A DNA stretch of 64,000 bases from Endozoicomonas montiporae CL-33 (GTDB lineage Bacteria; Pseudomonadota; Gammaproteobacteria; Pseudomonadales; Endozoicomonadaceae). This document shows positions 1 through 47,535 of the stretch, piece after piece; within the stretch, counting starts at the first letter, position 1; the number at the start of each line of letters is the position of its first letter. The translations under genes were made by a program, and so were the position numbers. Below the pieces are notes generated by a model, which was not told where the DNA came from, searched no databases, and worked only from the letters and a program-made list of their open reading frames with translations. The stretch lies in NCBI RefSeq assembly GCF_001583435.1, contig NZ_CP013251.1:4415215-4479214 (forward strand), in the 5' to 3' direction.

Positions 1-909
1 CCCGGTAGCTGGTGTCATAACGAATATCCGGTAGCTTTTGAAGGTGCGGCTGTTCTTTAGCAAAGCGTCAGCCACTTTTTCTTTCAGAGTGTCATGATGG
101 CGTTCATCTGCTACGTTGGTCAGCCAGTCTCCCAGTTGCTGGTTCAAGTGCTCAAGGCTTTCAAAGCTGCGATAGCGCTGGAAGAAGTTTTCTTTTACGT
201 AGCGCACCATACGCTCGGTTTTTCCCTTGGTCTGTGCTCTGTAGGGTTTGCAGGCTTTAGGCTGAAACTCGTAGTGTCGAGACAACAACAGAAAACCTTC
301 ATTAAACTTCACCTGTCCGTTACCAGGATGCTCCAGAACTGCAGCCTTCTGGTTATCAACCAGTACCTGCGCACTTGAACCCCCGAACCACTCGAACGCC
401 CGGATCAGGCTTTCATAAGTGTGTTCCGCATCATTGCTGTAAGCAGCAAAGGCATAGAAGCGGCGTGAGTAGCCCAGAACATTAACGGAGACATAAACTT
501 TGCGAAGCTCACCTCCAACTTCGATCTGCAGTTCTCCCCAGTCGTGCTGCAACTGGTGACCGGGAGCCGTTTCATAACGGGTGGTCGCCTTGCTTTCACG
601 CAGGGTGCGTTTAGGGTGGATATAGTCCCGTAAAATGGTGATGCCACCGGCATATCCCTGCCCTTTGATTTCGGCAAATATGACCTCGGCATTCCAGACA
701 TTCTCAGCCAGTAACGCGTCAATGACGGATTTGAAATCATCAAGCTTACTCTGGCGAACACCGGATTTGCGTCTGGGTGGTGGCCCTTGCCTTTGCAGGG
801 CTCTCTTGACGGTACTGACAGAGCAACCTCTCTGGCAGGCAATGTCCTCAAGATAGCAGCCTTTGTCTCTGGCTTGCTTTATCATAAGGTAGTCCTCTCG
901 GTTGATCAT
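1..909 (-). pseudogene. IS21-family transposase (IstA-like), frameshifted, runs off window edge
   Basis: Read on the minus strand from ATG at 909, preceded by AAGGAG, the frame begins MINREDYLMIKQARDKG with an N-terminal helix-turn-helix. It continues into a DDE integrase core with QHDWGE, an asparagine-rich segment (VDNQKAAV) and CKPYRAQTKGKTER, the usual order for IstA of IS21 elements. Near 65-69 the homology changes frame: the open frame goes on as LLKNSRTFKS, while the neighbouring frame gives FAKEQPHLQKLPDIRY, the expected continuation, so one base appears lost. The element extends beyond the window, so the end of the gene and any IstB partner cannot be seen. No other family fits as well. 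Confidence 0.8.
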
Positions 910-1008: not shown

Positions 1009-1038
1009 GGAGGTAACATCTTCCTTTTCTTAAGAGAA

Positions 1039-1815
1039 TTATGCTGCTTTCGGCGAAATACTGATCGGTCGGTCGTGTATTTTCTCCGATATCAGCTCCA
1101 ATTTTTGTTCATATCGGTTCCAGCAGCGGCGCACCCGAAGTGGAGGAATAATCCAGCACAAAGGACACTTTAACATTCCTGCTGTAACGGTATTCTCTGG
1201 CCGCCAGGCAATTTTTCCGACTTCCAGGGCCGATTTATTCTGGCAAATGGTCAACAATTGCAATAAGGCATAACCAGCCATTTTTATATGCATCCACCGA
1301 AGCAACGTTCTGAGTTTTTGCTGCCAGAGATGCTTACAGCCGAATTCATGTTTCATTTGTTGAAACATAGGTTCGATAGGCCATCTTTGGGCATAAGCGA
1401 GCAGCACCTCTTCTGCTTCCATTGTCGTATCTGTCGAGATGAATATTTTACTTTCTGTTTCCCCTTGTTAACTCCGCTTTGTCGTTTATAAAACGGCTCC
1501 AGACGACAAGGACTATACGACCTTTTAGAAAACGAGCTCGGCAAAGACAGGAGCGGAAGGATACTGTCCGATGCTTTCCATAGAGCCAAACTTTCACACC
1601 TCCAGATTCCTTGGGAAATCCAATGATGATAGCTATTCCAGAACCCTTCGTAGTGGATAGCCAGCAATGCCTGTGTAACAAAGCCCTCACCGGAGAGCAT
1701 ACTCCCAAGGAGCAGTTCGCAGAACGTTGGTGCTGCATTTGAAGATAGCGCTCCGACAAGAAATGTCGTATATATAGAGTTCCTGAAGAATTACTCTTTG
1801 TTCTGAAGTGAACAT
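1039..1815 (-). pseudogene. IS4-type DDE transposase relic, copy A
   Basis: Fragments of one transposase appear in shifting minus-strand frames. An N-terminal piece begins at ATG 1815 (MFTSEQRVILQELY) and continues in another frame with MLSGEGFVTQALLAIHYEG. A middle piece contains FLKGRIVLVVWSRFINDKAE. The C-terminal piece has FISTDTTMEAEEVLLAYAQRW followed by PIEPMFQQMKHEFGCK, the Y-x2-R-W-x-IE-x3-K signature of IS4-type transposases. The total length is well short of a full transposase, and the central catalytic part is missing or scrambled. It lies directly upstream of, and divergent from, the homeodomain gene, and the same relic is present in copy B. Confidence 0.75.
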
Positions 1816-1913
1816 GGCAACTGTTTCCTCTTGCTAGGAGGCTGTCCGAGAATAATCTGATTCGAAAAATACAAAACTTTCGTGCTTATAATTCTCTAAA
1901 CTCGAGTATCCGT

Positions 1914-3755
1914 ATGGCTTGCTATTTTATTCAACCATGGTTGGCTTTGCGTGCAAGTATCGCTCTTCTGTTAGTGCTATTTACTTGCAAATCTCAAAGT
2001 GATCTGGCTAACCACATTATCAGCTTTACTGCAACAGACTCTACTGCACCAGGCTCTTCCATTCAGAAACGCAATGGTTTTTTCTGTCTGAAAAAAGACA
2101 ATAGTCAGCACTTCTGCTCTCTTACTGGTCTGCCGTCGAAAAACACAACGCCTACCTTTGTCAGGGTGCAGTCATCATCGCTCCTGACAGTCAATATAAA
2201 TAATGATTCTAAAGACCCGGGTCGTCTGCTCATTAACAATGATGAAATCGTTGTGGTCTCCCTCAATGAACAGCCTGAAACCATTGAACTTAAGCTTCGC
2301 GACAAGATTAAACACCTGCCCGAAAGCCAGACAGACTCGGGCAACAGCTATTGCCAGACTATTCCTGAACAGGAAGACATTCTGTCTTGTTACATGTATC
2401 CCGGAGATACTGTAAGAATAAAAACTCCTGCAGAATTGCTGCTGGGCAACAAAACGCGATATTCTGATGCATATGCAGAACTGACAACAGGCGAACCCAA
2501 GGACGCGAGCCACCAAACCTTTCCACCAGATGATTTTACCAATGGCTCTTTTCTTGTGCTTAATACAAGAAAGACAACCCCAAGTTCAGAAGAACAGAAG
2601 CCACTCCACTCACCTGATACATTCATAACAGCACTGGTTACTGCAAAAATGCAGTTATTATTGGAAATGACCGGTAATAATTTACACCACCGAGGACGGT
2701 ATACAACCGTACCGGATAGTTTTAACCAAGAGCTATTGCTTTCACCAAAAACAAAATTTCCTGCTTACGACCTGTCCGTTAAGCCTGATAAATCCTACAC
2801 AACTGTTATCACTTATATGTTTGGAATCTCTCCATACCAATATGATGGTGATTCATCTCTTATATTTCTTATTGAATACTATAGAGTTCAATACGATATG
2901 GGCAATCAGCAAGCGGCAGCTGCAATGAGTTTTGAGCAATACCTGTTAAATGAAATGCGCCAACAAAATCACATTTATACAGAGCAAGATATACTTGACC
3001 ACCTTGCGTATATTAATCGGTATCGAGCTTCAGGAGCAACCTTCACCAACATTCAACCACCTACACATGCACGTACACATATACGCCATAAACGTAAAAG
3101 AAAATTTTTTACTCCTTCACAAAAAAATATTCTTGTTAATGCTTTTGCAAAAGATGATTATTTAGCCTCAAGTGATCTAGAGAAACTTTGTCAATCGACT
3201 GGACTCAGTCGGAAGCAAATTTTAACCTGGTACAGCAATAAAAGAGCACGAGAAAGAAAAAAAGAAGCTAAGTCTAATTCAAACGCTTTCAATCAGGGTC
3301 AAACTACGGCCGCACAAAGTGGAGGGTATTTATCACTTGCACCAACAGTGCAACCGAATATTCCGCCACCAATCATTTCAAATAATACTGTTAGTGTTAG
3401 CTCTGCACACGGTTTTCTTCTAAAACTGAAAAGGCAAAAACCATTCACAACCTGGAAGTTCCCCGACTATCCAGAATCGCCTGCACAGACAACAGCAAAC
3501 AATGATAATGCTGTGCCAGAAGCATACATGTATGAATCGAGTTCAAAATCAGGTACTTCTGAGCCAGATGGCAGAAACCCTGCGTCAAGTGAAAGTACAA
3601 AATCTGAAAATGAACAAAATCAATCACAAAGAGCAATTAAGCCAAGGGAAAAGCCAAATTTTACAAAGGATGGTAAACCTGTCGAAATGGAAGTTAATGA
3701 TAAAGGTGAAATAAAACGTGATAAAAACGGTGATATAGAGTTCAAAAGCGTCTAA
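1914..3755 (+). CDS. Secreted protein with eukaryotic-type homeodomain (copy A)
   Basis: A 613-residue protein. It opens with a hydrophobic signal-like segment (residues 11-25) followed by CKSQSD, so Sec export is likely. Residues ~30-304 are nearly identical to the paralogue at 6727 and match no family I recognise. Residues 392-451 form a homeodomain: with H392 as position 1, R5, F8, L16, F20, Y25, L26, L40, W48, N51 and R53 are all in place, with helix 3 reading TWYSNKRARERKK. Position 49 is Y and position 50 is S, unlike most animal homeodomains. Basic arms flank the domain and could serve as nuclear localisation signals. The tail is Gln/Ser/Asn rich and ends DGKPVEMEVNDKGEIKRDK. The coding is visibly AT-rich compared with core genes. 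No strong ribosome-binding site precedes the ATG. Function is inferred only: a secreted, possibly nuclear, DNA-binding effector. Confidence 0.85.
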   Translation: MACYFIQPWLALRASIALLLVLFTCKSQSDLANHIISFTATDSTAPGSSIQKRNGFFCLKKDNSQHFCSLTGLPSKNTTPTFVRVQSSSLLTVNINNDSKDPGRLLINNDEIVVVSLNEQPETIELKLRDKIKHLPESQTDSGNSYCQTIPEQEDILSCYMYPGDTVRIKTPAELLLGNKTRYSDAYAELTTGEPKDASHQTFPPDDFTNGSFLVLNTRKTTPSSEEQKPLHSPDTFITALVTAKMQLLLEMTGNNLHHRGRYTTVPDSFNQELLLSPKTKFPAYDLSVKPDKSYTTVITYMFGISPYQYDGDSSLIFLIEYYRVQYDMGNQQAAAAMSFEQYLLNEMRQQNHIYTEQDILDHLAYINRYRASGATFTNIQPPTHARTHIRHKRKRKFFTPSQKNILVNAFAKDDYLASSDLEKLCQSTGLSRKQILTWYSNKRARERKKEAKSNSNAFNQGQTTAAQSGGYLSLAPTVQPNIPPPIISNNTVSVSSAHGFLLKLKRQKPFTTWKFPDYPESPAQTTANNDNAVPEAYMYESSSKSGTSEPDGRNPASSESTKSENEQNQSQRAIKPREKPNFTKDGKPVEMEVNDKGEIKRDKNGDIEFKSV

Positions 3756-5677: not shown

Positions 5678-5851
5678 GCCGTTTCATATGGATTTCAGCA
5701 CATCAGCTACAGGACTGGAGATCATGTACTCCACCTTAGAGTTTTAAATGTACGACTGTTTGGTTAGATTTTTTTCTTCACGAAAACCAGTCCGTCAGCC
5801 TGACGTTTAGCAGTTTGTCCAAACAGTCAACTCTCTTCCTTTTCTTAAGAA

Positions 5852-6628
5852 TTATGCTGCTTTCGGCAAAATACTGATCGGTCGGTCGTGTATTTTCTCC
5901 GATATCAGCTCCAATTTTTGTTCATATCGGTTCCAGCAGCGGCGCACCCGAAGTGGAGGAATAATCCAGCACAAAGCACACTTTAACATTCCTGCTGTAA
6001 CGGTATTCTCTGGCCATCAGGCAATTTTTCCGACTTCCAGGGCCGATTTATTCTGGCAAATGGTCAACAATTGCAATAAGGCATAACCAGCCATTTTTAT
6101 ATGCATCCACCGAAGCAACGTTCTGAGTTTTTGCTGCCAGAGATGCTTACAGCCGAATTCATGTTTCATTTGTTGAAACATAGGTTCGATAGGCCATCTT
6201 TGGGCATAAGCGAGCAGCACCTCTTCTGCTTCCATTGTCGTATCTGTCGAGATGAATATTTTACTTTCTGTTTCCCCTTGTTAACTCCGCTTTGTCGTTT
6301 ATAAAACGGCTCCAGACGACAAGGACTATACGACCTTTTAGAAAACGAGCTCGGCAAAGACAGGAGCGGAAGGATACTGTCCGATGCTTTCCATAGAGCC
6401 AAACTTTCACACCTCCAGATTCCTTGGGAAATCCAATGATGATAGCTATTCCAGAACCCTTCGTAGTGGATAGCCAGCAATGCCTGTGTAACAAAGCCCT
6501 CACCGGAGAGCATACTCCCAAGGAGCAGTTCGCAGAACGTTGGTGCTGCATTTGAAGATAGCGCTCCGACAAGAAATGTCGTATATATAGAGTTCCTGAA
6601 GAATTACTCTTTGTTCTGAAGTGAACAT
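5852..6628 (-). pseudogene. IS4-type DDE transposase relic, copy B
   Basis: Same remnant as in copy A, with the same missing centre and shifting frames. The C-terminal piece (MEAEEVLLAYAQRWPIEPMF) is further shortened, because the tryptophan codon following GKIA in copy A is TGA here (TGG to TGA). The relic sits divergently upstream of the second homeodomain gene, showing that it was carried along in the duplication. Confidence 0.75.
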
Positions 6629-6726
6629 GGCAACTGTTTCCTCTTGCTAGGAGGCTGTCCGAGAATAATCTGATTCGAAAAATACAAAACTTTCGTGCTT
6701 ATAATTCTCTAAACTCGAGTATCCGT

Positions 6727-8727
6727 ATGGCTTGCTATTTTATTCAACCATGGTTGGCTTTGCGTGCAAGTATCGCTCTTCTGTTAGTGCTATTTACTTG
6801 CAAATCTCAAAGTGATCTGGCTAACCACATTATCAGCTTTACTGCAACCGACTTTACTGCAACAGACTTTACTGCAACAGACTTTACTGCAACAGACTCT
6901 ACTGCACCAGACTCTTCCATTCAGAAAAGCAATGGTTTTTACTGTCTGAAAAAAGACAATAGTCAACACTTCTGCTCTCTTACTGGTCTGCCGTCGAAAA
7001 ACACAACGCCTACCTTTGTCAGGGTGCAGTCATCATCGCTCCTGACAGTCAATATAAATAATGATTCTAAAGACCCGGGTCGTCTGCTCATTAACAATGA
7101 TGAAATCGTTGTGGTCTCCCTCAATGAACAGCCTGAAACCATTGAACTTAAGCTTCGCGACAAGATCAAACACCTGCCCGAAAGCCAGACAGACTCGGGC
7201 AACAGCTATTGCCAGACTGTTCCTGAACAGGAAGACATTCTGTCTTGTTACATGTATCCCGGAGATACTGTAAGAATAAAAACCCCTGCAGAATTGCTGC
7301 TGGGCAACAAAACGCGATATTCTGATGCATATGCAGAACTGACAACAGGCGAACCCAAGGACGCGAGCCACCAAACCTTTCCACCAGATGATTTTACCAA
7401 TGGCTCTTTTCTTGTGCTTAATACAAGAAAGACAACCCCAAGTTCAGAAGAACAGAAGCCACTCCACTCACCTGATACATTCATAACAGCACTGGTTACT
7501 GCAAAAATGCAGTTATTATTGGAAATGACCGGTAATAATTTACACCACCGAGGACGGTATACAATCGTACCGGATAGTTTTAACCAAGAGCTATTGCTTT
7601 CACCAAAAACAAAATTTCCTGCTTACGACCTGTCCGTTAAGCCTGATAAATCCTACACAACTGTTATCACTTATATGTTTGGAAGCTCGTTCAAAAAACC
7701 TGGATATTATGGATATTGTGATGATGATCTTGCGCATCTTATAATAGGATTTAGACGTCAATATGATGAAGGGCGCATCTGGCTAGCTTTATTAGATGGA
7801 GTGACTTTTCAGGAATATCTGTTCGATCAACTCAGCCAAGGAGCTTACTCCCAGTATCCAAGGGATTATCTACTTTACTGCCTTAGCTTTTTGGAAACAC
7901 GGCCAGCTTCAGGAACAAATCCCCCCCACATTCAACATTGTACATATGGTCAATATCCGTCAAATATCGCCTGCGCAATAGTAACTGCTCCAAATTCACG
8001 GGCAGGCTCAGGCCAAACTCTTCTTCAGTCCAGTAAACCCCTTGCAAGAAAGGCTGGAAACGAAAAATTGCCAGTAAAAAATAGGCAGTTATTCACAAAA
8101 CGACAACAGACTGCACAGACACCAGGTACACCAGACAAGAAACGCAGAAGAGGAAAATTTACTCCTGAACAAAAAAGAATTCTTGAAAGCGCTTTTAAAG
8201 AAAATAATTATTTACCCCCAAAGGGTCAACAGAGAATTGCTGCTAAGGCTAAAATGACTACGATACAAGTCCGTGACTGGTTCCAGAATAGAAGAAAAGA
8301 GGAGAAAAAAAAGATGAATTCTTCACTTGCAACAACATTACAACAGTATTTTCATACCCCAGTCAATTCAATTAATGTTGCTGGAATTGCTGGAATTGCT
8401 GGAATTGCTGGAAGTAGTTTTGCACAAGTTTTAGCTCGAAGCTATCAGCAATTGCCGCCTCTTGTACTCGCCTCTGCCCCTGATTCAGGTGCGCAAGGAT
8501 ATAATTCACCTTTTGCATATCCTCTGCAGACAATAACAAACAATGATAATCCTGCATCGGGACCGTTGTTCTCAGAACCAAGCAGTTCAGAATCCAAAGA
8601 TGAAGGTGAACAAAATCAACCAGGGTCAAGCCTAACACAACCAGATTTAACAATGGATGGTGAACCTGTAGAAATGGAACGTAATGAAGAAGGTTATGTA
8701 CATTTCAAAAGGATCAAGAAGAACTGA
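6727..8727 (+). CDS. Secreted protein with canonical eukaryotic-type homeodomain (copy B)
   Basis: A 666-residue protein with the same signal-like N-terminus and the same ~290-residue conserved region as its paralogue at 1914. It adds FTATD repeats at residues ~39-58. Residues 471-530 are a textbook 60-residue homeodomain with every invariant position present: R5, F8, L16, F20, Y25, L26, W48, F49, Q50, N51, R52, R53 (helix 3 VRDWFQNRRKEEKKK). Gln50 is the residue found in Antennapedia-type homeodomains and others. Lys/Arg clusters on both sides could act as nuclear signals. After the domain come a short AGI repeat (~residues 552-561) and a Pro/Ser-rich tail ending GEPVEMERNEEGYVHFKRI, similar to copy A. 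Nothing else in the sequence suggests a bacterial regulator, since it begins with an export signal. Role inferred: host-directed DNA-binding effector. Confidence 0.9.
   Translation: MACYFIQPWLALRASIALLLVLFTCKSQSDLANHIISFTATDFTATDFTATDFTATDSTAPDSSIQKSNGFYCLKKDNSQHFCSLTGLPSKNTTPTFVRVQSSSLLTVNINNDSKDPGRLLINNDEIVVVSLNEQPETIELKLRDKIKHLPESQTDSGNSYCQTVPEQEDILSCYMYPGDTVRIKTPAELLLGNKTRYSDAYAELTTGEPKDASHQTFPPDDFTNGSFLVLNTRKTTPSSEEQKPLHSPDTFITALVTAKMQLLLEMTGNNLHHRGRYTIVPDSFNQELLLSPKTKFPAYDLSVKPDKSYTTVITYMFGSSFKKPGYYGYCDDDLAHLIIGFRRQYDEGRIWLALLDGVTFQEYLFDQLSQGAYSQYPRDYLLYCLSFLETRPASGTNPPHIQHCTYGQYPSNIACAIVTAPNSRAGSGQTLLQSSKPLARKAGNEKLPVKNRQLFTKRQQTAQTPGTPDKKRRRGKFTPEQKRILESAFKENNYLPPKGQQRIAAKAKMTTIQVRDWFQNRRKEEKKKMNSSLATTLQQYFHTPVNSINVAGIAGIAGIAGSSFAQVLARSYQQLPPLVLASAPDSGAQGYNSPFAYPLQTITNNDNPASGPLFSEPSSSESKDEGEQNQPGSSLTQPDLTMDGEPVEMERNEEGYVHFKRIKKN
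6841..6903 (+). repeat. 15-bp tandem repeat encoding FTATD
   Basis: About four units of ACTTTACTGCAACAG encode repeated FTATD just after the predicted signal peptide. Copy A has a single unit. This is in-frame repeat expansion within an exported protein. Confidence 0.85.
8383..8413 (+). repeat. 9-bp tandem repeat encoding AGI
   Basis: Units of GCTGGAATT repeat three times plus a partial unit, coding for AGIAGIAG in the linker after the homeodomain of copy B. It is absent from copy A. Confidence 0.8.
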
Positions 8728-8820: not shown

Positions 8821-9618
8821 TTATTCCAATACTCGTGCGCAGGCTTTAACATTGTCCCGAAGATGCTTCGGATTAATGGTACCAATAATGGCTGAGGAAA
8901 CAGCCGGATGACCCAACACCAGCTCCATGCTTTTCTCAACCGGGTCTTCACCTTCCAGACAGACATGTCCGCTGGCCAGTGCTTTTTTAATCAGAATACC
9001 TTTGTCGTGTGCTTCAGCATAATCCAGCACCGGCTTTTCCGCCTGCTCGTTCAGATTATAAGTCACCATGGCAATATCCGATTGCTCCAGTGCCAGAATA
9101 CCGCCTTCTACCGTTTTGGTAGACATACCGGTAGCGCGAATCAAACCTTCTTTTTTCAGATCCGCCAGCACATCCAGACAACCGTATTGCTGAATGATAT
9201 TAACGTCATCCCCACTGGAATGAACCAGCACCATATCAATGTAATCAGTCTTGAGGCGCTTGAGACTGCGTTCAATGCTGAAACGAACATGCTCCGGCGA
9301 AAAGTCAAAATGGGACTGTCCCTTACTAAACTCTTCACCCACCTTGCTGCAGATAACCCAGTCCTGACGCTGGCCTTGTAACAGTCTGCCCAGACGTTCC
9401 TCACTGATGCCATAGGCCGGCGCCGTATCCAGCAGATTGATACCCAGAGACCGGGCAAGTTTTAGCAGCTCTGTCGCAGTGCGATCATCAGGAATTTTAA
9501 ATCCCTGCGGATACTTCACCTGCTGGTCACGGCCCAGCTTAACAGTGCCAAAGCCGATCGGCGACACCGCTATGTCTGTACCGGCAATCCGTCGGGGGGA
9601 TAACACGGGGTCAGTCAA
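8821..9618 (-). CDS. Aldo-keto reductase family oxidoreductase
   Basis: A 265-residue NAD(P)H-dependent reductase of the AKR fold. The catalytic tetrad is visible: D64 (NLLDTAPAYG), Y69, K92 (CSKVG) and H133 (MVLVHSSG). The C-terminal ILIKKALASG and the SSAIIGTINPKHL segment match the cofactor-binding part of plant-type and bacterial AKRs. The substrate cannot be predicted. Its start overlaps the end of the FAD oxidoreductase gene by 8 bp, so the two are translationally coupled and probably act in one pathway or repair function. A 3' hairpin lies at 8775-8805. Confidence 0.85.
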   Translation of the reverse strand: MTDPVLSPRRIAGTDIAVSPIGFGTVKLGRDQQVKYPQGFKIPDDRTATELLKLARSLGINLLDTAPAYGISEERLGRLLQGQRQDWVICSKVGEEFSKGQSHFDFSPEHVRFSIERSLKRLKTDYIDMVLVHSSGDDVNIIQQYGCLDVLADLKKEGLIRATGMSTKTVEGGILALEQSDIAMVTYNLNEQAEKPVLDYAEAHDKGILIKKALASGHVCLEGEDPVEKSMELVLGHPAVSSAIIGTINPKHLRDNVKACARVLE

Positions 9619-42678: not shown

Positions 42679-44283
42679 TTGCTGTCTCTGGTTGTAAAAC
42701 AACAAAGGATAAAGACTATTAAAAGTCTAATTTTTCAGATACTGCTCTTCGTATCTTTCGCCTGTTTGGCCGAATCGCAGACTCACAGTTTTATCGTTGA
42801 GCTTGGATACAATGCGGATTCGCCAAACCAGAATTTATCTATAAAGCTTGAGTCGGACACATTGCCTGCAATGCAGATGGTTTATATGGAACCTTTACAA
42901 GGCAAACCAACAGAAATTATCAGCACAAACTGCTATTCAGGCTCAGACACGCCACCTGAAGATAAGCCCTATAGGCCAAGAGGTCTCTGGGAAAGCCTGA
43001 CAACGGTTGTTGAGTCGGTTACTTTGCAACTGCTCTATGCCTCCAATAAAGTCATAGGTTACGAGCTGCTTCTGACACTTCAGGAAGACTCGCTATCCCC
43101 TCAACCTTTTTTATGGATACCCGTGGTAGCGACTGTTGTCGTTGGTTGGTTATCCAGAAATCGCTGGAACCCGGAAACGCCACTATTTAATCAACTCGAT
43201 GAGCAAGAGTTTAACAAGCAACATGAACTTCAGATAATCTCATTTATGTTCGAGCCGCCTTCCAATAGCTCTCATTCATCAATGGTTCTATTCGGCACCC
43301 CGCAACCAAACTATCCTCATTCGCTTCGGTTCTACAATACCTGGGCTAATACTCATGGTGGTAGTAATGGTGGCGGCTGGCAAGAAAGCCAGCATACCTT
43401 AGGTGATAACTGTTACATCGGCGGCTGCTGGGGAAGGTGCCAATATGCACTGCCTAATGAAGCACTTCTGTACGATAATCATTACGGCACCGATCAGTAT
43501 AAAAATGTATTCGCTGATGGATATGGGCAGCAAACATACGGGCAGGCCAATACTGAAAAGGATTACACCGGGGGGACAAACCATAGTACACATCCTGAAG
43601 GCTGTTTATGCGATAATTGTCTTGGTTCAAATTTGTTTTTCTGCTCGACTTCTGAAAGTACAGATACTACTATTCACTTTACTTCAATGAATTCTAACTC
43701 CTGCACTACAGAAGCGACCAGTACAGCACTTTCAAAACCAGTCACAATTGCCAATCCTAGTTCTAATTACGTAGTTTCTGCTGAACCATCGGAAAAAAAA
43801 TGCAAGCAGACCCACTTGCCATCCGATCAAAGACCCAAGAGACCCAAAACACACGAATGTGACAAGTGCGGCTACAAAACCGATCGCGCTAGCATTTTGG
43901 AAAGGCACAAGCAGACCCACTTGCCCTCCGATCAAAGACCCAAAGCACACGAATGTGACAAGTGCAACTACAAAACCGATCGCGCTAGCAGTTTGAAAGC
44001 GCACAAGCAGACCCACTTGCCCGCCGATGAAAGACACAAAGCACACGAATGTGACAAGTGCAACTACAAAACCGATCGCGCTGGCAATTTGAAAACGCAC
44101 AAGCAGACCCACTTGCCCTCCGATCAAAGACCCAAGAGACCCAAAATACACGAATGTGACCAGTGCGACTACATAACCGATCACACTGGCCATATGAACA
44201 AGCACAAGCGGACCCGGCACCCAGCTACAGGGCCAGACAACAACAATTCTGACGACGACAATGCGCCTGCCAACCCGCCTTAA
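42679..44283 (+). CDS. Exported protein with four C2H2 zinc fingers
   Basis: Up to 534 residues. The open frame begins at TTG 42679, but AAAGGA (42704-42709) sits eight bases before an in-frame ATT at 42718, giving IKSLIFQILLFVSFACLAES, a clean signal peptide; the start may be ATT or a mutated ATG. A second hydrophobic stretch (~residues 143-160, PFLWIPVVATVVVGW) could be a membrane anchor. A Cys/Gly-rich middle follows. Residues 394-414, 426-446, 458-478 and 493-514 are C2H2 fingers: CDKCGYKTDRASILERHKQT then H (C-x2-C-x12-H-x3-H); the last has H-x4-H. Linkers are LPSDQRPK(RPK). This finger style (C-x2-C-x-Y-x-T) is found in animal zinc-finger factors. The tail is Asp/Asn rich and runs into an IS91-type element. 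Role inferred: host DNA- or RNA-binding effector. Confidence 0.85.
   Translation: MLSLVVKQQRIKTIKSLIFQILLFVSFACLAESQTHSFIVELGYNADSPNQNLSIKLESDTLPAMQMVYMEPLQGKPTEIISTNCYSGSDTPPEDKPYRPRGLWESLTTVVESVTLQLLYASNKVIGYELLLTLQEDSLSPQPFLWIPVVATVVVGWLSRNRWNPETPLFNQLDEQEFNKQHELQIISFMFEPPSNSSHSSMVLFGTPQPNYPHSLRFYNTWANTHGGSNGGGWQESQHTLGDNCYIGGCWGRCQYALPNEALLYDNHYGTDQYKNVFADGYGQQTYGQANTEKDYTGGTNHSTHPEGCLCDNCLGSNLFFCSTSESTDTTIHFTSMNSNSCTTEATSTALSKPVTIANPSSNYVVSAEPSEKKCKQTHLPSDQRPKRPKTHECDKCGYKTDRASILERHKQTHLPSDQRPKAHECDKCNYKTDRASSLKAHKQTHLPADERHKAHECDKCNYKTDRAGNLKTHKQTHLPSDQRPKRPKIHECDQCDYITDHTGHMNKHKRTRHPATGPDNNNSDDDNAPANPP
43795..44219 (+). repeat. Tandem repeat of 96/105 bp encoding the zinc fingers
   Basis: Units beginning near AAGCAGACCCACTTGCC recur with spacings of 96, 96 and 105 bp. 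They are nearly identical at nucleotide level, including synonymous sites, so the array grew by recent in-situ duplication. A partial unit (KKCKQTHLPSDQRPKRPK) precedes finger 1. Confidence 0.88.
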
Positions 44284-45852: not shown

Positions 45853-47535
45853 TCAACCTCTTCCCTTTTCATCTCTCCCTTCATCCATCGAATCATCATC
45901 CTCGGATGATTCTGCATCATCATCTATTTCTTCAGGCCCTGCAGTTTCAGATTTTTTACTCTTCGGATCGAATGACATTGGATCACCTATAATAGGCAAT
46001 TGCAGCAATTTTTTGATCATATAGGCCTGCAGAAAATTCGCAGGCATTGATGTATAAAGCTCATGAAAAGCTTCAAGCATAATCCATTGTCTTTCATGCC
46101 CATTTTCAGCATAAATTTGTTGCATACTCTTAACAGGGTTTTTGGCTTCTGCGAACATGACAAATAACATAAGGCCTTCAATAACCTCATCAACACCAAA
46201 GGGCCTTTTCAATATTTGATCAAAAGTAGTTTTATACTTTGGTAAGAGATCGGTAAGTGCGTCTGCAAACCCTTGAGCATTTTTCAAAACCAGCACCTTT
46301 CCTCTTTCAATATTTTTATCTTGCCGACTTTCTGAGTACAACTTAGTCAATGCAACGTTAACCAGGAATCGTTGAACCGCATCAGACACGGCATGACCAG
46401 GAGACATTTTAGTATTCAAGATAGTCATGCCTTTAAACTGTTGTGTATCAAGCGTTAATGAAGGGTCGGGGTAATGCAGAGCAATACCCATTCCATGCCA
46501 CCTGGCATAGGTCAGAAGATTAGCGAATAGCTGTTCCTGATCGTGTTTTCTTGAGTGTTTGTTAATAAAGCTTTTGATTGAACGAATGATTTTATCAGGA
46601 TCAACTGGGCTTTTTTCCTTTAACATCGGGTGGTAAGTTATATTGATATCCATATCAAATTTGGGTGGCACCACATCACCAAAACCTGCTTCTGCCCGCT
46701 TTTGTTGTAGGTCATTCTCAAGCTTACTGACTTCCTGCGGGTCATAGGTATGACACTTTTTTACAATCATTTCAGGATACCGGTTTTGCAGGCTGTAGTC
46801 GGACTCAGAAGCACCAGCAGTTTCGTTTTTTTTATCCGCTTCAGATGCAGCAATGAAATTTCCATCGACAGTTAGCCCCAGCCGGTTATAACGCTCGTTT
46901 TCTTTGAGATACTCATGCCCCTTAACAAAAAGGTCCCAGTTTTTCTTTGTGAATTGTGCCCGCACCGGAGATTGTTGATTATCGTTTTTTCCCACAGCAA
47001 CAGAAAAGTCACCCGCACTTTTACTATCGACAGACTCTGCCACTGATTGATCGTCTGCGGAGAAGCCGCGTTCTTGTTGCGAAGTGATAGGCGTTAATGA
47101 TCCCTTTTCAACAATCAGAATTTCTGGATAAACACCTTTTACCGCTGGCGTCCCAAAACTCATCGGCGAATCCATGGCTGCAGATTGCTCCAACGCTGAA
47201 GACTGCTCTACCGCTAAAGATTTTGGAGGTTGACTCACATGCCCTTCTTCTGTTTTTGACTGAAGCGAGAGAGGCAGCTTAACAGGTTCAACGTACTCGC
47301 CGGTTTCACTGTTAATAACCCCACACAACAACTCCAGATCCAACACAAATTGCCCCCGATCATCCACTTTGACTGTCAAAACTTTCCTTTCACCAACCCC
47401 CTTTAAATGAAGCTTACCGGTACCATCATCCAGTTCTTCTACATAGCCGGAGATCTGACCATCTGCAGAAACAATTGGATTTAATGACAAACTCAATGCC
47501 GGTATTAAAAAAGCCAATCGCAAGACTGGTTTCAT
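45853..47535 (-). CDS. Exported 560-residue protein with acidic tail, unknown
   Basis: ATG 47535 is preceded by GAGGAA, and residues 1-24 are a signal peptide (LAFLIPALSLSLNPIVSA). An N-terminal beta segment (GQISGYVEELDDGTGKLHLK) is followed by a long Ser/Gln-rich stretch with disorder features (~residues 90-200). A helical C-terminal half (~290-520) ends in KSKKSETAGPEEIDDDAESS and further acidic residues. I recognise no domain. Low GC and the position next to the zinc-finger locus suggest an accessory, perhaps effector, protein. It could equally be an envelope protein. Confidence 0.65.
   Translation of the reverse strand: MKPVLRLAFLIPALSLSLNPIVSADGQISGYVEELDDGTGKLHLKGVGERKVLTVKVDDRGQFVLDLELLCGVINSETGEYVEPVKLPLSLQSKTEEGHVSQPPKSLAVEQSSALEQSAAMDSPMSFGTPAVKGVYPEILIVEKGSLTPITSQQERGFSADDQSVAESVDSKSAGDFSVAVGKNDNQQSPVRAQFTKKNWDLFVKGHEYLKENERYNRLGLTVDGNFIAASEADKKNETAGASESDYSLQNRYPEMIVKKCHTYDPQEVSKLENDLQQKRAEAGFGDVVPPKFDMDINITYHPMLKEKSPVDPDKIIRSIKSFINKHSRKHDQEQLFANLLTYARWHGMGIALHYPDPSLTLDTQQFKGMTILNTKMSPGHAVSDAVQRFLVNVALTKLYSESRQDKNIERGKVLVLKNAQGFADALTDLLPKYKTTFDQILKRPFGVDEVIEGLMLFVMFAEAKNPVKSMQQIYAENGHERQWIMLEAFHELYTSMPANFLQAYMIKKLLQLPIIGDPMSFDPKSKKSETAGPEEIDDDAESSEDDDSMDEGRDEKGRG

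Follow-up and report, generated by a model that had tools for sequence, protein, structure and literature searches.

A tandem array of homeodomain genes with predicted export signals in the coral symbiont Endozoicomonas montiporae CL-33

Classical homeodomains are held to be a eukaryotic family and serve to build body plans. We describe here three tandem homeodomain genes in Endozoicomonas montiporae CL-33, a culturable coral symbiont, with homeodomains at C1:4413090, C1:4418304 and C1:4423354. Two of them (copies 2 and 3) lie in the window, the whole 64,000-nucleotide stretch analysed (contig NZ_CP013251.1, positions 4,415,215 to 4,479,214), and copy 1 lies just outside it. Copy 3 (6727..8727, + strand), the main subject of this report, encodes 666 residues comprising a predicted export signal, an orphan N-terminal part (the N-part), a homeodomain and a low-complexity tail. 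We think it likely that the three proteins are exported effectors that enter host cells, reach the nucleus and bind host DNA. As read from their sequences, this host-nucleus role is supported but unproven.

Residues 472–528 of copy 3 (8140..8310, + strand; homeodomain positions 2–58) form a true homeodomain. The initial annotation had claimed a complete homeodomain from a set of diagnostic residues and had named an HMM search as a check. All of those residues (R5, F8, L16, F20, Y25, L26, W48, F49, Q50, N51, R53) are present by the codon table, and PF00046 matches over the whole model (positions 1–57 of 57) with a significant score of 51.6 bits (E 8.5e-14), against a curated cut-off of 22.9 bits. 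The near-invariant L16, F20, W48, F49, N51 and R53 are all in copy 3, and its helix 3 reads WFQNRR; in copies 1 and 2, Y49 replaces F49. A Pfam scan of copy 3 at E<=1 returned three homeodomain families and nothing else, tandem repeats of the transcription activator-like (TAL) type being absent at this threshold. PF05920 (Homeobox_KN, the TALE/PBX class) scored 14 bits against a cut-off of 24 and thus remained below threshold, and none of the three proteins scanned against NCBIfam gave a match above cut-off.

Structural comparisons agree with this assignment. A search of PDB sequences with copy 3 returned 99 chain sequences at E<=0.001, of which the best 60 are homeodomain proteins or homeodomain-based designs, led by an engrailed tandem (1.2e-10). 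The AlphaFold2 (AF2) model of the homeodomain region, built from 14 sequences, has a mean pLDDT of 79.2, with core blocks at 86–92, and places helices where the three-helix fold would have them, in line with the structure prediction that the initial annotation had proposed. Foldseek returned 446 matches to this model at E<=10 and none at E<=0.001, the best standing at just 2.2e-3. Among the best 50 of these 446, 48 are named homeodomain proteins or designs and two are co-crystal entries (9yzl, 9yzt), the first of which contains even-skipped according to the PDB sequence search; the rmsd is 0.5–1.7 in 43 and 3.3–9.9 in the remaining 7. The full-length model of copy 3, though poor (mean pLDDT 34.8), also contains three helices, at residues 480–492, 498–507 and 512–538. 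Contamination was rejected because the array lies within a single 5.43 Mb contig and other homeodomain genomes are likewise assembled in large contigs (G005, G019, G030, G031 and G035, with matches inside contigs of 5.1–7.2 Mb).

The array itself goes beyond the single gene initially annotated, with a second full copy at 1914..3755 (copy 2, + strand) and a further one just beyond the window. Copy 2, a paralogue of 613 residues, shares the N-part but has a different homeodomain (3090..3260, + strand; 56.2 bits, helix 3 WYSNKR), and all three copies are open frames, of 613, 663 and 666 codons. The N-part, of about 319 residues, is near-identical across the three except for a length-variable repeat; in copy 3 the stretch in common with copies 1 and 2 (6727..7688, + strand) has 95–97% DNA identity with indels counted. 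At 7688 this homology ends abruptly, and past it copy 3 diverges strongly from both other copies (DNA identity 0.33–0.74 in 40-column blocks). Copies 2 and 3 have a common stretch of 1,857 bp at 96.8% identity that includes upstream DNA and a transposase remnant, the copy 2 side lying at 1019..2830 and the copy 3 side at 5834..7688 (both + strand). The remnant upstream of copy 2 is of the DDE type (1039..1422, − strand; 16.7 bits, under the cut-off of 23). Part of an IS21-type transposase gene (1..909, − strand; integrase core rve, 48.6 bits for the whole open reading frame) stands between copies 1 and 2, its IstB partner lying to the left of the window.

The array occupies a slot whose content changes between genomes. 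On the left it is bounded by an hldE-like gene that lies outside the window, and on the right by an aldo/keto-reductase-like gene (8821..9618, − strand) named by eye from the sequence. The slot was compared in four of the nine other same-genus genomes that gave the reductase: it is empty (about 195 bp) in G009; in G005 and G007 it holds an unrelated orphan (551 and 571 residues) whose start looks signal-like by eye, and in G002 another orphan, of 446 residues. Kinship of the N-part with the slot's other orphan was rejected (hhalign probability 0.1). Just left of the window (L004:6453-7997) lies a further orphan of 514 residues; it has a TSSSTSSS stretch and, by eye, a signal-like start, and its Pfam matches are sub-threshold only (FAM199X, MACPF). 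A phage origin of the array was rejected, no relative having been found in viral contigs (9 pattern stretches, 0 confirmed) or among 50,697 phage records, as was a plasmid origin, with no relative among 72,556 plasmid records.

The comparison of copies 1 and 2, the two close paralogues on which the case for selection rests, points to strong positive selection on a conserved DNA-binding fold. Their DNA identity is 0.973 before the homeodomain, 0.836 inside it and 0.968 after it. Within the homeodomain, 28 of 171 bases differ, distributed 15/13/0 over codon positions 1/2/3, which amounts to 27.5 nonsynonymous (N) differences over 136.3 sites and 0.5 synonymous (S) differences over 34.7 sites. 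The 391 codons before it carry 24 N and 8 S, the 154 codons after it 14 N and 1 S, and the whole gene 9.5 S over 399.2 sites. The homeodomain has an N density of 0.202, which is 8.5 times the whole-gene S density (Fisher p 1.2e-10) and exceeds the N density elsewhere in the gene (38 of 1270.5 sites; p 5e-13). The S density shows no increase in the homeodomain (p 0.58, computed on part of the gene), and import of an old diverged segment is therefore no explanation. Of 55 amino-acid differences in 602 aligned codons, 19 fall within the 57 of the homeodomain; in none of 20,000 shuffles did any 57-codon window, stepped by 3, hold 19 replacements. The densest windows begin at residues 406–412 of copy 2, covering helix 1 to slightly beyond helix 3. 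A diversity-generating retroelement was thought unlikely by eye as the source, because the differences extend beyond A positions; no search for a reverse transcriptase was made.

Drift in decaying, horizontally acquired passenger DNA would be another way to account for these differences. Transposase genes and remnants lie between the copies, the GC content in half-kilobase blocks is 36–45% in the copies (46–52% between them) against 52–58% to the left and 48–57% to the right, and N/S is near 1 ahead of the homeodomain. All three frames nevertheless remain open, and 28 differences with none at third positions are not what drift would produce, so that we find this explanation scarcely credible.

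The positions that changed bear on what the homeodomain may do. F8, L16, F20, Y25, L26, W48, N51 and R53 are unchanged between copies 1 and 2, and the replacements fall at positions 6, 15, 17, 21, 24, 27, 29, 30, 33, 42, 43, 45–47, 52 and 54–57. R5, W48, N51 and R53 are constant in all three copies, and position 50 is S, S and Q in copies 1–3. We take positions 6, 47 and 54 to be base-contacting and position 50 to help set specificity. It could be argued that the homeodomain serves instead as a protein-contact decoy, tying up host homeoprotein partners or import receptors and not DNA, given that positions in helices 1 and 2 and the loop (15, 17, 21, 24, 27, 29, 30, 33) change too. Sections of PMC6213907 supply a precedent in a bacterial bZIP protein that reduces the activity of host factors. 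Set against this, R5, W48, N51 and R53 are held constant in the three copies while 6, 47 and 54 change, and we judge the decoy to be quite improbable.

The export signal claimed for the protein is predicted in all three copies. Each starts MACYFIQPWLALRASIALLLVLFTCKSQS, a short n-region (charge +1) followed by a hydrophobic stretch, and the hydropathy maximum over 12 residues is 2.61 in every copy. In copy 3 the predicted Sec-type signal peptide covers 6727..6813 (+ strand), with the h-region ASIALLLVLFTC at residues 14–25 and an end estimated by eye. The prediction is a hydropathy reading, based on the 12-residue mean and the n-region charge, and was made for 15 proteins of the 31 homeodomain matches found in the family. 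Both homeodomain proteins of G019, which belongs to another genus, also have predicted export signals (2.28 and 2.12), and nine others score 0.20–1.62; L019 scores 0.84 from its TTG start, with a signal-like stretch by eye behind a later ATG. The genus g7 homeodomain proteins that were scored have no signal-like start, and two of five control genes reached 1.93 and 2.06. For the predicted passage across the outer membrane, two type II secretion GspD secretins (TIGR02517) score over cut-off in the genome. A type III system is reported for strain CL-33 in part of PMC4781883, and type II, III and VI systems are listed for the bacterial family in sections of PMC12491435.

The N-part contains four cysteines at constant spacing in all three copies. 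A search of the 37 family genomes matched in three, two of them other genomes aligning by 45–52 residues only (E 0.002–0.005), and in a protein-collection search three proteins passed of 7,996 candidates scored, all three from the array's own genome. Kinship with the N-parts of L016 and L019 was rejected since only the homeodomains align (that of L019 weakly), and kinship with the N-domain of the zinc-finger proteins described below was rejected for want of a BLASTP match.

These features would also suit an exported protein that never reaches a nucleus, such as a periplasmic or surface protein that holds DNA, for biofilm or uptake, or traps invading DNA. A Sec signal is predicted, signal prediction alone does not place a protein outside the bacterium, and the four constantly spaced cysteines of the N-part could pair. 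Yet selected changes at specificity positions make little sense for unspecific DNA holding, the eukaryote-type fold is confined, among the genomes searched, to one animal-associated bacterial family, and the genus g7 relatives bear homeodomains without a signal-like start. We therefore regard a periplasmic or surface role as unlikely.

Among the genomes searched, PF00046 occurs in this bacterial family alone. It scored over cut-off in 15 of 57 genomes, all within the family (15 of 36), with 31 matches in total; no match came from the order's 21 other genomes or from the 14 control genomes. In draws from the class and the phylum, which overlap, the only holder was the array's own genome (1 of 369 and 1 of 398, respectively). 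PF05920 was found in 12 of 37 family genomes, over cut-off in 10, and adds G027 and G057, so that 17 of 37 family genomes have PF00046 or PF05920. A scan of GTDB contigs, in which 5 of 15 pattern stretches were confirmed, named Sansalvadorimonas verongulae RKSG058, Endozoicomonas YOMI1 and SESOKO1, E. acroporae Acr-14 and Salinisphaera sp. G21_0 as holders; the last record matches genome G028, which sorts into the window's family, and is probably misnamed. A protein of Endozoicomonas sp. GU-1 is already labelled homeobox domain-containing protein by its source, and automatic annotation thus recognises the domain.

This distribution bears on whether the proteins could be ordinary bacterial transcription regulators whose likeness to homeodomains arose by convergence. 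The homeodomain fold is related to bacterial helix-turn-helix folds, and the genus g7 homeodomain proteins that were scored lack a signal-like start. Against convergence stand the full-length PF00046 match with W48, F49, N51 and R53, the absence of PF00046 from other genomes in the class and phylum draws, the predicted export signal and the location in a slot of changing orphan genes. A bacterial regulator is accordingly very unlikely, and the doubt that the initial annotation had cast on a bacterial transcription role is upheld by the predicted signal in all three copies.

Within the family the homeodomains are diverse. The other bacterial homeodomains are 22–42% identical to that of copy 3 (27 compared), and the homeodomain recurs with unrelated partner regions, since no real relative of the N-part turned up in the rest of the family. 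In G025, the protein L031 (contig C260) is PBX-like (Homeobox_KN, 46.6 bits), with PBX1 and extradenticle as its best single-domain PDB matches, and another homeodomain of the same genome scores 73.3 bits with PF00046 and has engrailed as its best PDB match. L031, L043 and L044 score over cut-off for Homeobox_KN; they come from two genus g5 genomes, and engrailed-like homeodomains are also present in one of these. In an alignment of 13 genus g7 homeodomain genes, the homeodomain is followed by a conserved C-terminal motif (Y.L ... A.S...ALQ.M), which recurs by eye in L011 and L012. A tree of 36 homeodomain sequences (28 bacterial, 8 eukaryotic) had mostly low support, because only 57 residues are available, and no donor, animal or protist, can be named from it. 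The tandem, diversifying array sits within a family-wide phenomenon that reaches beyond what was initially annotated.

We propose that the array proteins would act in steps. Following predicted Sec export, they would cross the outer membrane via one of the two type II secretion systems, and would then enter the host cell from a vacuole or from outside, possibly aided by their own helix 3. A basic arm of the KKRRR type could mediate nuclear import, and the homeodomain would bind sites in host promoters or enhancers, where it would compete with host homeoproteins or imitate them. The delivery half would be held constant while the DNA-reading half evolves, and different copies would read different sites; genus g7 relatives, which lack a signal-like start, would have to use a different route, such as type III. 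Crossing of the host membrane is the weakest step. Self-entry is possible: helix 3 here (IQVRDWFQNRRKEEKK) retains WFQNRR, though it carries acidic residues and would be less basic than penetratin. In animals, homeoproteins cross membranes, with helix 3 (penetratin) critical, according to sections of PMC9274163; these are likewise secreted homeodomain proteins, but animal ones, and the array proteins are bacterial.

Several points weigh against host-nuclear action and against selection for altered DNA reading. A Sec signal by itself does not put a protein into the host cytosol, and hydropathy alone is no proof of export, because a control flavoprotein scored 2.06 (charge −4). The N-part has no real relative outside its own genome (37 family genomes), and no confident full-length model covers it (mean pLDDT 34.8). 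The shortage of S differences inside the homeodomain is by itself modest (p 0.014), the strong figure arising because the homeodomain was compared with the rest of the gene, and constraint outside it is weak (24 N/8 S before, 14 N/1 S after). Nine related gene pairs in genus g7 show no homeodomain-specific excess, with N/S ratios of 0.16–1.24 in the homeodomain and 0.78–1.91 in the rest. PF00046 has no match in 21 of 36 family genomes. Finally, in sections of PMC6213907, the bZIP precedent alone had no significant reporter effect.

The array proteins can be set beside several known systems. Copy 3 is like animal homeodomain proteins in the 57-position match, the three-helix model, WFQNRR and N51/R53 (nearest in the PDB are engrailed and NK-2/vnd), and its homeodomain is 28–43% identical to the structures of the best 50 of 446 Foldseek matches; it differs in being bacterial and in having its homeodomain joined to an orphan N-part and a predicted export signal. 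In the TAL effectors of Xanthomonas and Ralstonia, a constant delivery part is joined to a DNA-reading part that differs between paralogues. By analogy, the array proteins would resemble TAL effectors in their manner of working, and they are not members of that group: they use an animal-type homeodomain and predicted Sec export, in contrast to TAL repeats and type III delivery. The likeness to these effectors, which are named in part of PMC4885862, lies in a DNA-reading part diversified between paralogues and a constant N-part, which would serve delivery. The nucleomodulins TRP120 and Ank200 of Ehrlichia are similar in proposed role, as bacterial DNA-binding proteins acting on host genes; sections of PMC4885862 describe them with DNA binding and target-gene changes and with other modules, whereas the array is known from sequence.

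Closer in taxonomy are other eukaryote-type proteins of Endozoicomonas. Two ephrin genes are found in the CL-33 genome, as reported in part of PMC4781883, and excerpts of PMC11521996 include inhibitor of apoptosis proteins (IAPs) among the eukaryotic-like genes of the genus. The Nach bZIP proteins also pair an animal-type transcription-factor domain with the same bacterial group; unlike the homeodomain proteins here, they were assayed in human cells, and their co-expression in HepG2 lowered Nrf1- and Nrf2-driven reporter activity, as given in sections of PMC6213907. The bZIP family PF03131 is found in 13 of 37 family genomes and was not found in the array's own genome at E<=0.001. Ets-domain and TCF15-like genes, reported in part of PMC9743535, are likewise eukaryote-type transcription-factor domains in coral Endozoicomonas, the domains themselves being different. 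The stem homeo is absent from the text of PMC4781883, PMC12491435, PMC6955870, PMC11521996 and PMC9743535; in PMC13286007 it occurs once, as homeostasis, and in the available sections of PMC4557100 and PMC4286716 homeobox appears solely in the title of a Drosophila reference. We found no description of bacterial homeodomain proteins of this kind in the open-licence literature, although a report elsewhere is possible.

A second candidate exported DNA-binding protein, met while scanning 10 other open reading frames of the window, lies at 42679..44283 (+ strand). It has a signal-like start by eye, an N-domain and four C2H2 zinc fingers (43858..44226, + strand; zf-C2H2 34.6 bits for the protein, cut-off 25.2). 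The likely start is an ATT at 42718, after AGGAT: in four members of a related cluster no ATG, GTG or TTG precedes the hydrophobic stretch and AGGATA is conserved before ATT AAA AGT, which makes an ATT start likely, and the relative L088 has ATG at the corresponding position. A paralogue at C1:3952630 has 332 residues in common at 89%, followed by different fingers. In the four-copy cluster, the N-parts (312 codons) differ by 0–1 S and 0–2 N in all six pairs, and the finger regions by 22.5–55.5 N (350–352 sites) and 1.5–5.8 S (81–83 sites). Across 20 pooled fingers, both cysteines, the leucine and the first histidine are invariant; helix positions −1, 2, 3 and 6, in what we presume to be the usual numbering, vary, position 2 most, along with a few others. 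On sequence comparison, this family repeats the pattern of the array, with a frozen N-part and changing fingers.

The single-finger model is weak evidence alone: at E<=1 it matched 36 places in the array's own genome, of which one exceeded the cut-off, and it also matched in 11 of the 14 control genomes, exceeding the cut-off in 1. Scores taken over whole proteins carry more weight (window protein, 34.6 bits; L097, 47.4 bits). Five of the 37 family genomes, all from the window's own genus, have relatives of the N-domain, at 10, 6, 8, at least 63 and at least 63 places. Among 15 loci read, six have canonical fingers (L089 just one) and eight have only repeats with long Cys-Cys spacing, and at L101 the longest frame is an unrelated gene; all six loci from the two sister genomes with at least 63 places carry long-spaced finger-like repeats. 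Five of eight loci scanned with Pfam scored over the cut-off of a finger family. The loci of this large family noted here are window 42679-44283, L085, L086 and L088–L100. Nearby, at 45853-47535 (− strand), the window encodes a 560-residue protein whose start looks signal-like by eye and for which no Pfam family matched at E<=1e-4.

It is quite possible, though we lean somewhat against it, that homeodomains and zinc fingers together form, in Endozoicomonas, an arsenal of animal-type transcription factors that are exported and still evolving, each with a constant delivery half and a DNA-reading half selected to change. This would be an animal-symbiosis counterpart of plant TAL effectors, with the homeodomains possibly self-entering via helix 3. 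Such an arsenal would give these bacteria a toolkit addressing chosen sites in coral and sponge genomes. For the array itself, the claim can be tested at once, as the DNA specificity of three close paralogues is measurable. What stands out is a coral symbiont with homeodomains bearing a predicted export signal, two close copies of which appear to be positively selected on the DNA-reading surface. If the proteins do act in the host nucleus, common symbionts of reef animals would directly reprogramme the transcription of their hosts.

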